Source: Polynucleobacter necessarius (GTDB lineage Bacteria; Pseudomonadota; Gammaproteobacteria; Burkholderiales; Burkholderiaceae). Taken from it: a DNA stretch of 64,000 nucleotides. The stretch covers positions 1,227,915 through 1,291,914 of the forward strand of contig NZ_LT606948.1 in NCBI RefSeq assembly GCF_900095185.1, read 5' to 3'. The position numbers were made by a program, and so were the translations under genes. Below are positions 3,431 to 19,336 of this stretch, in pieces (the stretch's first letter is position 1; every line of letters starts with the position of its first letter). The notes below the pieces were generated by a model that saw nothing but the letters and a program-made list of their open reading frames with translations, was not told where the DNA came from and did not search any database.

Positions 3431-4491
3431 ATGGCATCTATGAATAAAAGCTTTCTAGCATGTGCGGGCATCGGTCTCGCTATCCTGGCTGGTTGCGCTA
3501 GTAAGCCGCCTGTAAAGCCAGCCGAATCAGCGATTGTTGGGCAAGTTACCAGCAGATCCGCCTAAGAATCCTGTGATTAGCACGGAGGCTCTCAAAGCAG
3601 ACTCTAAATCTATTGCAGTCACCGATATCTATTTTAAAAGGGAAGGCAAGAATCTGACCTTTATTAAAGAAACTCGTACTGTTACTGATAAGAGTATTTC
3701 TTCCACAATTACGCCAAAGACAATTGAGGTGGATGCAGATAAGGCTGACGCTTCTGTGCTTACTGTGGCGGCACGAACTCTTCTGCATTTCCAGTCAAGT
3801 TCACTAACTTGGTTGAACTTAAGGCAACTAATCCTGAGGCTGCTAAGCCTTCAGCACCTGTTATTGATTCAGCCACTCCAAGCAACAGCTCATCTTCTGC
3901 CAATACACAGCGCCTGAAGAAGTCTGGTTATCAGACCAACAATGAGTATGTGGAATTACGCTACCTAACCAACCCGATTCGCGGCTTATTAATTAAGTCT
4001 TGATATAAAGTTGTGCAAGCTACAGCGAATGTAGCTACAGCTAATCAAGGTGATGAGTACTTTGATATCGTGAAGCGGATTAAGGCTGGCGATTTCGGCG
4101 ATGCGGATTACGTTCTGTATGGCGTTTTAACTGAAGTCTCTAGTACGGATAATGTGGCTGACATTTCAGGTACAAAATCTACCTCTCAAAGAATGACGCT
4201 TGAAGTCGCGGTGGACTTTCATATTGTTGTGATGCCAAGATTACACAAATTGTTGCTTCATTTGTCGCCTCTGGAGAGGGTAAGGATGTGCAAATTGATG
4301 GTCAGAATACTGCTTATGAATTTAGCATGGCAAAACTGATGAAGTTGGCTTCATTAGATTTGGCTGACGATGTTCGCAAACATCTGGCTGACCAGAACTT
4401 TATTACAAACAATCCCGGATCAGCAGGGCAAGTTCACAATCTCAAGAGGCGTCTAGATGATGATGCATCTACTGTGAAGGTATATAAGTAA
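3431..4491 (+). pseudogene. CsgG/LpoB-like lipoprotein, multiply disrupted
   Basis: A start at 3431 opens a lipoprotein signal peptide with an LAGC lipobox. The mature part resembles the CsgG/LpoB fold group: an N-terminal region (SIAVTDIYFKREGKNLTFIK), a linker rich in Pro/Ser/Ala, and a domain containing GDFGDADYVLYGVLTEVSS and, in another frame, DAKITQIVASFVASGEGKDV. Lesions are a frameshift near 3535, another near 3785, an in-frame TGA at 4001-4003, and a frameshift near 4230; the C-terminus then runs to TAA at 4489. It follows lpoB on the same strand and probably shared its transcript. The precise family role is unknown to me. Confidence 0.65.
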
Positions 4492-4537: not shown

Positions 4538-5929
4538 TTACGCCTCTATAGGCGGATGCGTGCTTTCATAGTGCTCCGCCACTCTTCTAAATAGATAAAG
4601 CAAAAAGCACGCAGCTAAGGCTAGGCTAAGGCTATTGCTAGCCCAGAATCCATTGGCGCCTTGCAGGAATGTGGGTGTATTGCCTAGTACATTGAATCCC
4701 AATAGGTAGCCACCACCAAGTCCTACGCCCCACAGTGAGCCTGCGTAGATAACCATTGGCCAAAATGCGATGCGGTACGCGCGCAAAATAAATGCTGCAG
4801 CTACCTGCAGTGCATCGAATACTTGGTAAAACGCGATAAAAAGAAAGAGGGGAATAGAAAACGCTTTGACTTCCTCAGGTGGGTCATACAAGTCTAGCAA
4901 TTGCACTCTAAAGATCCAGACAGCAATGCCAATCGTGATGCAAAGCGCTGTAGTAAAAAATACCGAGGACCAACCAATCTCTTCGGCACGCTCGGGCTTA
5001 TTAGCGCCAATCGATTGGGATACCAGCGTCATCGTCGCAATCGAAAGTGACAAGGGCACCATATAAATGACGGTCCCCATATTGGCCACAATTTGGTGAC
5101 CGGCTAAGGCGGTTGTTCCGAGGCGAGCAATAAATAGGGACATGAAGGTAAAGGAGGTCACTTCAATTAAGTAGCTAAAGCCAATTGGCGTGCCCAGTTT
5201 TAATAGGGTCCAGATGCGATGCCAGTCTGGTAGACTAAAATGCGAAAAGATCTTAAATGGCCTATAAAAGCGATCGAACAGAACAAAGCCTAAAGTCATG
5301 AGTAGCCATAGCCAGTTAATGATGACGGTTGCTACTGCACAACCAGGTCCACCCATGCCTTCTATTCCTAAGCCGCCATAAATAAAGAGCAGATTGAGGG
5401 GTAATTTCAGGGCGAGACCAATAATCTGCACAACTGTAATTACGGTCGGGCGTGAAACGGCATTGTGTAATGCCATGAGGACGCGCATTGCCATGTTAGC
5501 AGGTAAGCCAATTGCTAAAATATTGAGGTATAGCTTTGCTTTGTCCTCAATGACTGAATTCATTTTTGCAATAGCTAATAAGTGATCCGCGTTAAGCAAA
5601 ATGAGGCAGCCCAAAATCGTTAGGCCGACGACTAGCCAGGTTGCTTGACGTACCTCTTCACCAATTTCTGAAAAGCGTTTGGCGCCGAAGAGTGGTCCCG
5701 CAATAGGTGCGAGGGCTGAAACTACGCCAGTTAAGCCAACGTAAATACTGATAAAGATCGCTGATGCCATTGCTAGTGCAGTTAAATCATCGGCAGAGTA
5801 ACGAGCTGTCATAGCTGTATCGAGTACACCAAAAGCAATTACCGCTAATTGACCAACTAATAAAGGACCAGCAAGTTTTAATAAGGAGGGAATATCCTCG
5901 CGCAGTCGCGACCACTTAAAGTGCAGCAC
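4538..5929 (-). CDS. MATE family multidrug/organic cation exporter
   Basis: This 463-residue polytopic inner-membrane protein has about twelve hydrophobic segments in two similar halves, which is the MATE (NorM-type) layout. The N-terminal half contains PLLVGQLAVIAFGVLDTAMTA, and the second half starts near residue 235 with GTPIGFSYLIEVTSFTF. Such transporters export cationic drugs or metabolites in exchange for Na+ or H+. The length is normal and the frame is undisturbed. Its start lies three bases after the stop of the glycosyltransferase gene upstream, so the two are probably co-transcribed from the right. Substrate unknown. Confidence 0.92.
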   Translation of the reverse strand: MLHFKWSRLREDIPSLLKLAGPLLVGQLAVIAFGVLDTAMTARYSADDLTALAMASAIFISIYVGLTGVVSALAPIAGPLFGAKRFSEIGEEVRQATWLVVGLTILGCLILLNADHLLAIAKMNSVIEDKAKLYLNILAIGLPANMAMRVLMALHNAVSRPTVITVVQIIGLALKLPLNLLFIYGGLGIEGMGGPGCAVATVIINWLWLLMTLGFVLFDRFYRPFKIFSHFSLPDWHRIWTLLKLGTPIGFSYLIEVTSFTFMSLFIARLGTTALAGHQIVANMGTVIYMVPLSLSIATMTLVSQSIGANKPERAEEIGWSSVFFTTALCITIGIAVWIFRVQLLDLYDPPEEVKAFSIPLFLFIAFYQVFDALQVAAAFILRAYRIAFWPMVIYAGSLWGVGLGGGYLLGFNVLGNTPTFLQGANGFWASNSLSLALAACFLLYLFRRVAEHYESTHPPIEA

Positions 5930-16778: not shown

Positions 16779-17630
16779 TTAGTCTATGGAACGTTTCCCC
16801 ATCATCCTTGAGCTTGTAGAAACAGCGTCAAGGTTGGCCGTGGGCGCAATTCCTAAGCTGCCAGCTAGCGCTGCTGCTAAATCACTCAGAACATCTGCGT
16901 GTAAGTTAGTTGCCACGATAGTATCTAAAGATACTGGACGATTGATCATGCGTGCTGTGGCGGCATCGACCAATTCTTGATCCCAAGTGACATCAGGGAA
17001 ATCTTTGGCAACGATATTGGCAATCTCATCCCACATCACCATACCGTGACGCTGGGCATTCGACTTGGTGGACAGTGAGGTGTGTACGAGGGCGTGACTG
17101 CGCTAGCTTGAAAGCGAAACGCTGGACACGCTCAACCCCAACGCGGGTCGTGATGCTCATATCTGAAGCGACTTCAATCGGGTGCCCTTGGTGCACTCTA
17201 CCGCCTACACCATAGTACTCGCCTTCAGAGTTCTCGCGCACGATGACCCAATCGAGTTGACCTGGTTTGCAATTGCACAGTGGCGTTTCAATACCGGGGA
17301 GAATGCGTGTAGGACGCACGTTCGCATATTGATCAAATCCTTGACAGTTTTTGAGACGCAAACCCCATAAAGTAATGTAATCAGGAAAGTTGGGGTCACC
17401 AGCTTAGCCAAACAAAATGGCATCTTTAGAACGTAAAGGTTCTAGACCATCGTGGGGCATCATGATGCCTTGCTTACGGTAGTAATCGCCACCCCAATCA
17501 AAGTACTCGAATTCAAAAGCGACTTTAGGATGTTTTTTGCTTAAGGCATTTAATACCTTTTCGCATTCTGGGATAACTTCTTTTATATGAGCTATGTCTA
17601 GCATCAGTATGCAATTCGTTCGACCCTCAT
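16779..17630 (-). pseudogene. tartrate/isopropylmalate dehydrogenase family (TtuC-like), decayed
   Basis: The remnant matches NAD-dependent tartrate dehydrogenase/decarboxylase of the isocitrate/isopropylmalate dehydrogenase family: RPTRILPGIETPLCNCKPG, DWVIVRENSEGEYYGVGGR, then in another frame MVMWDEIANIVAKDFPDV and TIVATNLHADVLSDLAAALA. A start-like ATG at 17628-17630 is followed by frame loss in the nucleotide-binding start. A TAA at 17404-17406 interrupts FG*AGDPN. A frameshift near 17030-17100 separates the two blocks. The C-terminus after GIAPTANLD is missing (the expected FEPxHGSA is absent). The gene converges on the AddA-type gene, 17 bases away. Confidence 0.85.
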
Positions 17631-17735
17631 GGACGCAGGGGGGCGCTTGGGGTTTATGACTAGGAAGAGGGGATTGAGACCACTCATAGCCTTAAAACAA
17701 CAAACAGCCCTTCATTTTTGCGGTTTTTATATGTA

Positions 17736-17751
17736 CTGTATATGCATATAG
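17736..17751 (+). promoter_or_regulatory. LexA-like (SOS) box upstream of the umuDC remnant
   Basis: CTGTATATGCATATAG has the CTG-N10-TAG arrangement of a LexA site (consensus CTG-N10-CAG) with an A/T-rich, near-palindromic centre, 8 bases before the umuD ATG. This is where an SOS operator of umuDC is expected. Assignment rests on sequence resemblance and context. Confidence 0.6.
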
Positions 17752-17758
17752 TATATTA

Positions 17759-18625
17759 ATGACTATGACGCCAGTAATGAACCCCGCAAAAGCTACCTTA
17801 AGCCAGGCACCACAAGCCTTGGCAGGGCATTTTGCTGCCTATGAGCTCAAGCTTCTGAGTCACTGGATTTCGGCGGGTTTGCCTGGTCCGGTGGCAGATT
17901 ACGCTGAAGATGGTCTCGACCTGAACCACTACTTGGTGCAGAACAAGCCGGCCACATTCATGTTCACCGTCAATGGTGATTCGATGCTTGGCGCTGGGAT
18001 TTGCGATGGCGACAAAGTTGTTGTCGATAAAGCTTTACTCGAGGTGTATAGCATTGACGAGAGTTTCTTACAAATCGAGACCGTCTTAAAGCGCTACCAA
18101 AACACCAGCGAGTTAGGTCAGAAAATTAAACAAGAAGTGAAAGGCACTACTGGCTTGCCAGTTTGCGTCGGTATTGGTTCCAGTAAGACCCTGGCTAAGT
18201 TAGTCAATCACTTGACTAAAAAAACACCAACAGTTTGCTGGCGTATGCGATGTAAACGCGCTGGCAAAAGAAGAGCTCTATCAGTGGATAAGTGAGACCG
18301 AGGTAAGTGAGGTCTGGGGGTGTTGGTAAACAAATTGCCAAAAAACTCAAAGCCCAGCTCATCCTGAGCATATTGGATTTATTGCAAGCTTCACCACAAG
18401 CCATGCGCCAGCAGTTTGGTGTTGTGATGGAGTGCCTTTTTTTGCTATGAGCTACGCGGTACGGCCAAAGAGGAGAAACATATAAACGCTATCAGCGACT
18501 GGATGAATAACTTTAACGGGATCTCATTAACCATCATCATGGTTTTGTCTTACTGCACTGTGTTGAAAAACACTAAGCGTCACGAAAGCGAAACAAAGCG
18601 AGTATTTAATCGGAATTACCAGTAA
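17759..18625 (+). pseudogene. umuD::umuC deletion chimera
   Basis: The open frame from 17759 starts as UmuD, the LexA-like auto-cleaved subunit of DNA polymerase V, with VNGDSMLGAGICDGDKVVVD containing the catalytic serine. At about codon 98 it passes directly into mid UmuC, with EVYSIDESFLQIE and VCVGIGSSKTLAKLVNH (Y-family polymerase palm). The UmuD catalytic lysine region and the UmuC start are deleted. After about 18230 the frame is lost; further UmuC text (FAGVCDVNALAKEELYQWIS; GKQIAKKLKAQLILSI; QASPQAMRQQFGVVME) continues in other frames to about 18600. The result cannot be a working polymerase. The upstream LexA-like box is retained. The 3' limit is approximate. Confidence 0.88.
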
Positions 18626-18793: not shown

Positions 18794-19336
18794 ATGACTG
18801 AAGATAAGCAAACCTTCCTAGACAAGAAACTACGGCCCTTGCCACGCTGGATATTTATGTCCCGCTGGTTACAGGCACCTTTATATCTTGGACTGATCGT
18901 TGCTCAAGGCGTCTACGTATGGCAGTTTTGGGTTGAGCTGATTCATCTAGTAGAGATGATGGCTAATAAGAGTATGACTGAGACTGCTTTGATGTTGGTG
19001 GTCTTGGGGCTCATTGACGTTGTCATGATCTCCAATTTATTAGTGATGGTGATCGTGGGTGGTTGGGAAACATTTGTGTCGCGCTTAGAGTTGGAAAATC
19101 ATCCAGACCAACCGGAGTGGCTATCGCATGTCAATGCGGGCGTACTCAAAGTGAAGTTGGCAACAGCCATTATTGGCATTTCATCAATCCATTTATTAAA
19201 GACGTTTATCAATGCGGCATCCTATGATGAAAAGACCTTGATGTGGCAAACCTTAATTCATGTCACATTCGTCTTGTCTGCTCTGGCAATTGCTTATACA
19301 GAAAAAATAGTTACAGCCGCTCATAAGCCACATTAA
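18794..19336 (+). CDS. yqhA: YqhA/UPF0114 family membrane protein
   Basis: This 180-residue protein has about four transmembrane helices (roughly residues 30-50, 65-87, 118-138, 148-166) and the YqhA signature region [22 protein letters not shown] followed by [20 protein letters not shown]. The family is uncharacterised and sits in the inner membrane. Length and frame are normal, and it is the only intact gene between 16.8 and 22.2 kb. The 170 bases upstream contain no other gene. Confidence 0.85.

Follow-up and report, generated by a model that had tools for sequence, protein, structure and literature searches.

The closest known counterpart of the locus analysed here is the umuDC operon of free-living Polynucleobacter, which encodes DNA polymerase V. 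In the aligned relatives, UmuD and UmuC are encoded by separate ORFs, and the best site upstream of umuD is of the form CTG-N10-CAG in 80 of 80 relative loci (one of them, L145, has just 59 bases upstream). All of these loci are from Polynucleobacter, and the named records among them include P. alcilacus, P. hirudinilacicola, P. yangtzensis and P. necessarius isolate PPGSP2. LexA operators of E. coli require both CTG motifs (PMC5999292). According to PMC5018217, P. necessarius lives as an obligate endosymbiont in Euplotes, and its genome of ~1.6 Mbp contains many pseudogenes. DNA repair genes are often missing in obligate mutualists (PMC4285135).

The window, i.e. the whole stretch of 64,000 nucleotides that was analysed, corresponds to positions 1227915–1291914 of the source genome (G000), which is a single contig of 1,655,757 bases. 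Comparison with the relatives indicated that the operon is represented in the window by two gene fragments joined in one frame, followed by a further umuC remnant. With high confidence, we regard this locus as a umuDC operon that was inactivated recently and is now a young pseudogene, in a Polynucleobacter that has undergone genome reduction. Its features are as follows:

16779–17604, minus strand: tartrate dehydrogenase-type (TTC family) pseudogene whose pieces lie in different frames; it immediately precedes the umuDC remnant and points away from it
17734–17753, plus strand: degenerate LexA operator, the 20-mer TACTGTATATGCATATAGTA, 5 bases before the ATG, identified by comparison with relatives
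17759–18037, plus strand: 5′ part of umuD, codons 1–93; Ser 75 is kept and the catalytic Lys, which the relatives have at residue 112, is missing
~18034–18040, plus strand: junction of deletion 1, from alignment to relatives; the deletion takes away the end of umuD, the spacer and the beginning of umuC
18041–18223, plus strand: umuC fragment in the hybrid frame (hybrid residues 95–155), including the SIDES motif, assigned by identity to G113 and by the PF00817 match (90–147 of 148)
18224–18295, plus strand: last 23 codons of the hybrid ORF and its stop, read out of frame following a frameshift in an A run
18224–18462, plus strand: umuC remnant beyond the hybrid frame with more frame changes, from alignment, three-frame translation and UmuC query pieces 154–195 and 187–228
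18462–18471, plus strand: junction of deletion 2, placed by blastn and by where the umuC stops lie; umuC is missing from about codon 235 onwards, stop included, along with some downstream bases

The hybrid frame and the lesions around it

The 178-codon ORF (17759–18295) has a start codon and is open throughout. It is composed of UmuD residues 1–93, one junction residue, ~61 UmuC residues and the 23 out-of-frame residues. In the profile search, hybrid residues 33–95 matched Peptidase_S24 (profile positions 3–62 of 116, E = 1.5e-11) and residues 93–150 matched IMS/UmuC (PF00817; positions 90–147 of 148, E = 1.2e-12), so that both matches, which are far above chance, share one frame. This is in agreement with the initial annotation, in which the ORF was read as an in-frame UmuD::UmuC fusion made by internal deletion, with a junction near 18045 that the comparison with umuDC of relatives now places at ~18034–18040. 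The catalytic serine that had been assigned to the UmuD part is present as well. The UmuC palm part holds insofar as the IMS match is in frame, but only ~61 UmuC residues share the hybrid frame and the last 23 residues of the ORF are read in another one. The umuD part is identical to UmuD of G113, a genome with both genes intact, in 84 of the 92 first residues, and the umuC part is identical to UmuC of G113 in 52 of 62 residues counted from EVYSIDE, the start of the fragment, which corresponds to UmuC residue 96 (numbered from LFAL).

The extent of deletion 1 is apparent from the spacing between VVVDKA of UmuD and EVYSIDE of UmuC, which is 535–562 bp in seven intact relatives (L035–L038 and L167–L169) and 6 bp in the window, corresponding to a net loss of 529–556 bp. 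No convincing direct repeat was found at the junction when the alignments with relatives were inspected for microhomology. Since a deletion leaves the frame open with a chance of ~1 in 3, selection is not required to account for the open hybrid frame. Similarity to umuC persists to ~18462, past the end of the hybrid ORF, and the frame of this region is changed by one extra base in an A run (~18223), one in a G run (~18316–18320) and four at a T run (~18437–18443). Deletion 2 follows, with a net loss of ~0.63–0.71 kb (626–708 bp) relative to L037, L038, L167, L168 and L169. When mapped on L167, its flanks lie at 4258 and 4893 and the umuC stop at 4839–4841, and the other four loci are alike; the deletion takes the 3′ 45% of umuC, which is cut at about codon 235 of its 427. 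Given this additional large deletion and more frameshifts in the same gene, the proposal that the hybrid had been kept is not supported. Homology to an intact operon at the same place, together with disabling lesions, marks the locus as a umuDC pseudogene.

The fragments lack residues that functional UmuD and UmuC need. UmuD has lost residues 94–166 of 166, i.e. 44% of its length, so of its Ser-Lys dyad Ser 75 is kept and Lys 112 is deleted, and the S24 domain is incomplete. Ser 75 and Lys 112 of the G113 UmuD correspond in the alignment to the serine in GDSM and the lysine in GEFTVKKL of E. coli UmuD, the catalytic pair Ser 60 and Lys 97; in the structures, the position of Lys 112 is occupied by the K of GEFTVKKL in 1umu and by A in 8gmt. 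UmuC has lost the first ~95 residues at its 5′ end, including Asp 6, while the Asp-Glu of SIDES is retained in the alignment with Y-family polymerases. Together these are the three catalytic acidic residues of UmuC, of which the fragment lacks one. Complete palm, thumb and little finger domains are likewise absent, given the partial IMS match, the frameshift and the deleted 3′ part.

The gene downstream of the remnant (18794–19336) belongs to the TIGR00645 family and has an open frame. Farther on, two overlapping ORFs on the minus strand (20425–19763) could be parts of a single frameshifted gene; one has an exonuclease-like start (by eye, with no Pfam match), and the other matches PF12843.

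The operator and the SOS genes of the source genome

The site upstream of the hybrid ORF has an intact left half, CTG (17736–17738), and a right half that reads TAG (17749–17751), giving CTG-N10-TAG. A LexA-like site is present, as proposed, at 17734–17753. However, it was described as an intact SOS-type operator, and this is wrong, since the right half-site is TAG, as opposed to CAG in all 80 relative loci, and both motifs are needed in E. coli, from whose LexA the requirement is taken. Some LexA binding at the changed operator may persist. A simple scan for one promoter type found 0 sigma-70-like promoters at the hybrid locus (1.3 expected by chance), and a simple terminator scan found 3 sites (0.9 expected).

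The regulators of the SOS response look intact elsewhere in the source genome. The proposal of a damage-inducible hybrid depended on lexA, and the gene is present, with a product of 262 aa that matches PF01726 (3–65 of 65) and PF00717 (1–116 of 116); loss of lexA from the source genome is thereby ruled out. The recA product is 363 aa long (PF00154, 1–262 of 262), and a LexA-like site, CTGTATATAAAAACAG, lies ~75 bases upstream of the gene. As both genes are complete, LexA and RecA are probably functional. The search for S24 domains in the source genome returned LexA and the umuD remnant, with no intact UmuD, and the IMS search returned no Y-family polymerase domain besides the umuC remnant. A further LexA-like site, CTGTTTATTAATACAG, was observed ~0.2 kb upstream of mraZ (L158, 1501–1516 and 1724–2164; G000:C1:787555). 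The genome contains 12 LexA-like sites of the CTGTTTATTAATACAG type and 6 of the reversed pattern, so the mraZ site could be due to chance.

Age of the decay and competing readings

Residues that are invariant among relatives were used to compare the fragments with the downstream neighbour. In the umuD part, 4 of 59 invariant residues (81 shared columns, 31 rows) are changed in the window; the corresponding numbers are 3 of 39 for the umuC part (32 rows, with L165, whose umuC is truncated and itself broken, left out) and 1 of 147 for the neighbour (15 rows). Taken together, 7 of 98 invariant residues are changed in the umuDC parts versus 1 of 147 in the neighbour (Fisher p = 0.008, with relatives that are not independent, several rows being the same genome under two ids). 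When relatives were left out one at a time, none had more than 2 private changes in the UmuD part or more than 2 in the UmuC part; in the neighbour the highest count was 8, reached by L041 alone, so that the contrast is modest. The dN/dS of the umuD part between the window and 31 relatives has a median of 0.039, and among the relatives the median is 0.027 and the maximum 0.130. Such a low value means that the inactivation was recent or that the fragment is still constrained. A recent inactivation of umuDC is a fair reading of these comparisons. Among the Polynucleobacter genomes listed, none besides the source genome had this junction.

The events behind the pseudogene can be outlined as follows. 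Deletion 1 cut out ~0.53–0.56 kb that ran from within umuD into umuC, and by chance left an open frame. Deletion 2 removed ~0.63–0.71 kb, including the 3′ 45% of umuC, small insertions shifted the frame of the remaining umuC, and of the CTG/CAG pair of the operator one motif was lost. Any hybrid product would be expected to be unstable or inactive, and the short hybrid frame very probably does nothing, the find being ordinary genome decay. The initial annotation had left open whether the product is inert or interferes with RecA or polymerase processivity; inertness is the best-supported part of that alternative, and interference found no support here. The loss of Lys 112, the frameshift within the hybrid ORF and deletion 2 had escaped that annotation.

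Interference would require transcription of the hybrid, either upon damage or, with the operator weakened, at all times; the UmuD-like N-terminus of the product would then bind RecA filaments and hamper LexA cleavage or recombination. The open 178-codon frame with a start codon near the old operator, the retained Ala-Gly of the cleavage site and Ser, and the intact lexA and recA are all compatible with such a role, but Lys 112 and residues 94–166 are gone, and the IMS and S24 searches indicate a genome without an intact UmuD or UmuC partner. Moreover, the four changed residues of the umuD part are invariant in 31 relatives, and three of them lie within AGFPSPA by the cleavage site; the simple scan of one promoter type, with 0 sigma-70-like sites against 1.3 expected, also speaks against this reading, which we consider very improbable. 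It is equally improbable that the hybrid is a newborn small protein which became constitutive after loss of the LexA half-site and tunes RecA or LexA without polymerase V.

There is likewise little chance that the junction and the frameshifts are assembly or sequencing artefacts and that umuDC is really intact. The small frame changes do sit at A, G and T runs, a common type of error, but two separate deletions of >0.5 kb with collinear flanks, as well as a changed operator and private replacements, are atypical of one artefact, and the IMS and S24 searches revealed no other umuDC copy in the single-contig genome. A natural, conserved lineage of UmuD-UmuC fusions in the genus would agree with the frame that is open across the junction and with the relatives that match hybrid residues 1–140 to 1–162 in one piece at 52–70% identity. 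When the hybrid was used as query, a match was obtained in 172 of 186 genus genomes (an IMS match over the cut-off was obtained in 173 of 186), but among the matches listed the window alone covers residues 1–178. The drop of identity in the long matches is read as the UmuD C-terminus overlaid on the UmuC part, G033, which has such a long match, encodes a separate complete IMS domain, and the aligned relatives have two ORFs, so neither these relatives nor the genus search (among the matches listed) supports a conserved fusion, and its probability is negligible.

The reduced genome size and the decay suggest that the source organism is an endosymbiont, and it would be expected to lack damage-induced mutagenesis by Pol V. 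The decay of umuDC may be attributed to relaxed selection in a host-bound lineage; genome reduction in Polynucleobacter symbionts was reportedly described by Boscaro and others in 2013 and 2017. Taken alone, the umuDC remnant is one more pseudogene.

Comparison with other Polynucleobacter genomes and known systems

Full UmuC and UmuD of G113 were run against 11 chosen genomes, G000 and G113 among them. This set is not a random sample, the genomes having been picked for weak, split or no matches in the genus-wide searches. Besides the source genome, it contains the following:

G113: umuD and umuC intact
G058 (L166): umuD uninterrupted, umuC in three pieces, perfect operator kept
G062 (L172/L186): umuD present, umuC split at about codon 75, perfect operator kept
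G063 (L165): umuD divided near residue 107, umuC interrupted by a stop and again by a split, perfect operator kept
G017 (L045): umuD scrap with most of the gene lost, umuC broken, right half of the operator lost
G060 and G090: no umuC match, and a LexA-like hit only for the UmuD query
G152 and G154: no umuC match, fragmented assemblies
G077: distant Y-family relative only

LexA (PF01726) and RecA (PF00154) without inner stops were found in all eight of G000, G017, G058, G060, G062, G063, G090 and G113. In G062, which has a complete lexA ORF, a second LexA-like repressor ORF (L196, 1345–1866) lies beside recombinase-like frames (by eye) and is probably part of a mobile element. In G017, the umuC scrap is flanked by a patchwork of pseudogenes (L017, 1–1500), in which helicase-, oxidoreductase- and solute-binding protein-like fragments (by eye) merge. 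Literature searches for umuC/umuD pseudogenes or fusions returned none, and nothing on topic was returned for Polynucleobacter and umuC.

Together, the umuDC remnant of the source genome and six other single-contig Polynucleobacter genomes (G017, G058, G062, G063, G060 and G090), in which umuDC is broken or absent and LexA and RecA are kept, suggest that damage-induced mutagenesis was lost repeatedly while the SOS regulators stayed. With the six genomes chosen for weak or no hits, this is a lead as to which components of the SOS system go first in decaying genomes.

When the umuDC remnants of G062, G017, G058 and G063 are compared with the window, it is apparent that an interrupted umuC with LexA and RecA kept is common to all of them. 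However, the positions of the breaks differ from those in the window and from each other, which points to independent losses of umuDC in several Polynucleobacter genomes. Compared with the UmuD/UmuD′ structures (PDB 1umu, 1i4v and 8gmt), the window fragment is similar in the Ser and in the segment after the cleavage site, both of which can be aligned, but unlike them it stops 19 residues short of the catalytic Lys. With the intact umuDC operon of free-living Polynucleobacter the window shares the place of the operator and the order of the genes, and the TIGR00645-family neighbour is found downstream, as in the window, in 15 of the 29 loci tried. In contrast to that operon, the window carries two large deletions, frame changes and a changed operator, and it encodes no complete UmuD or UmuC.
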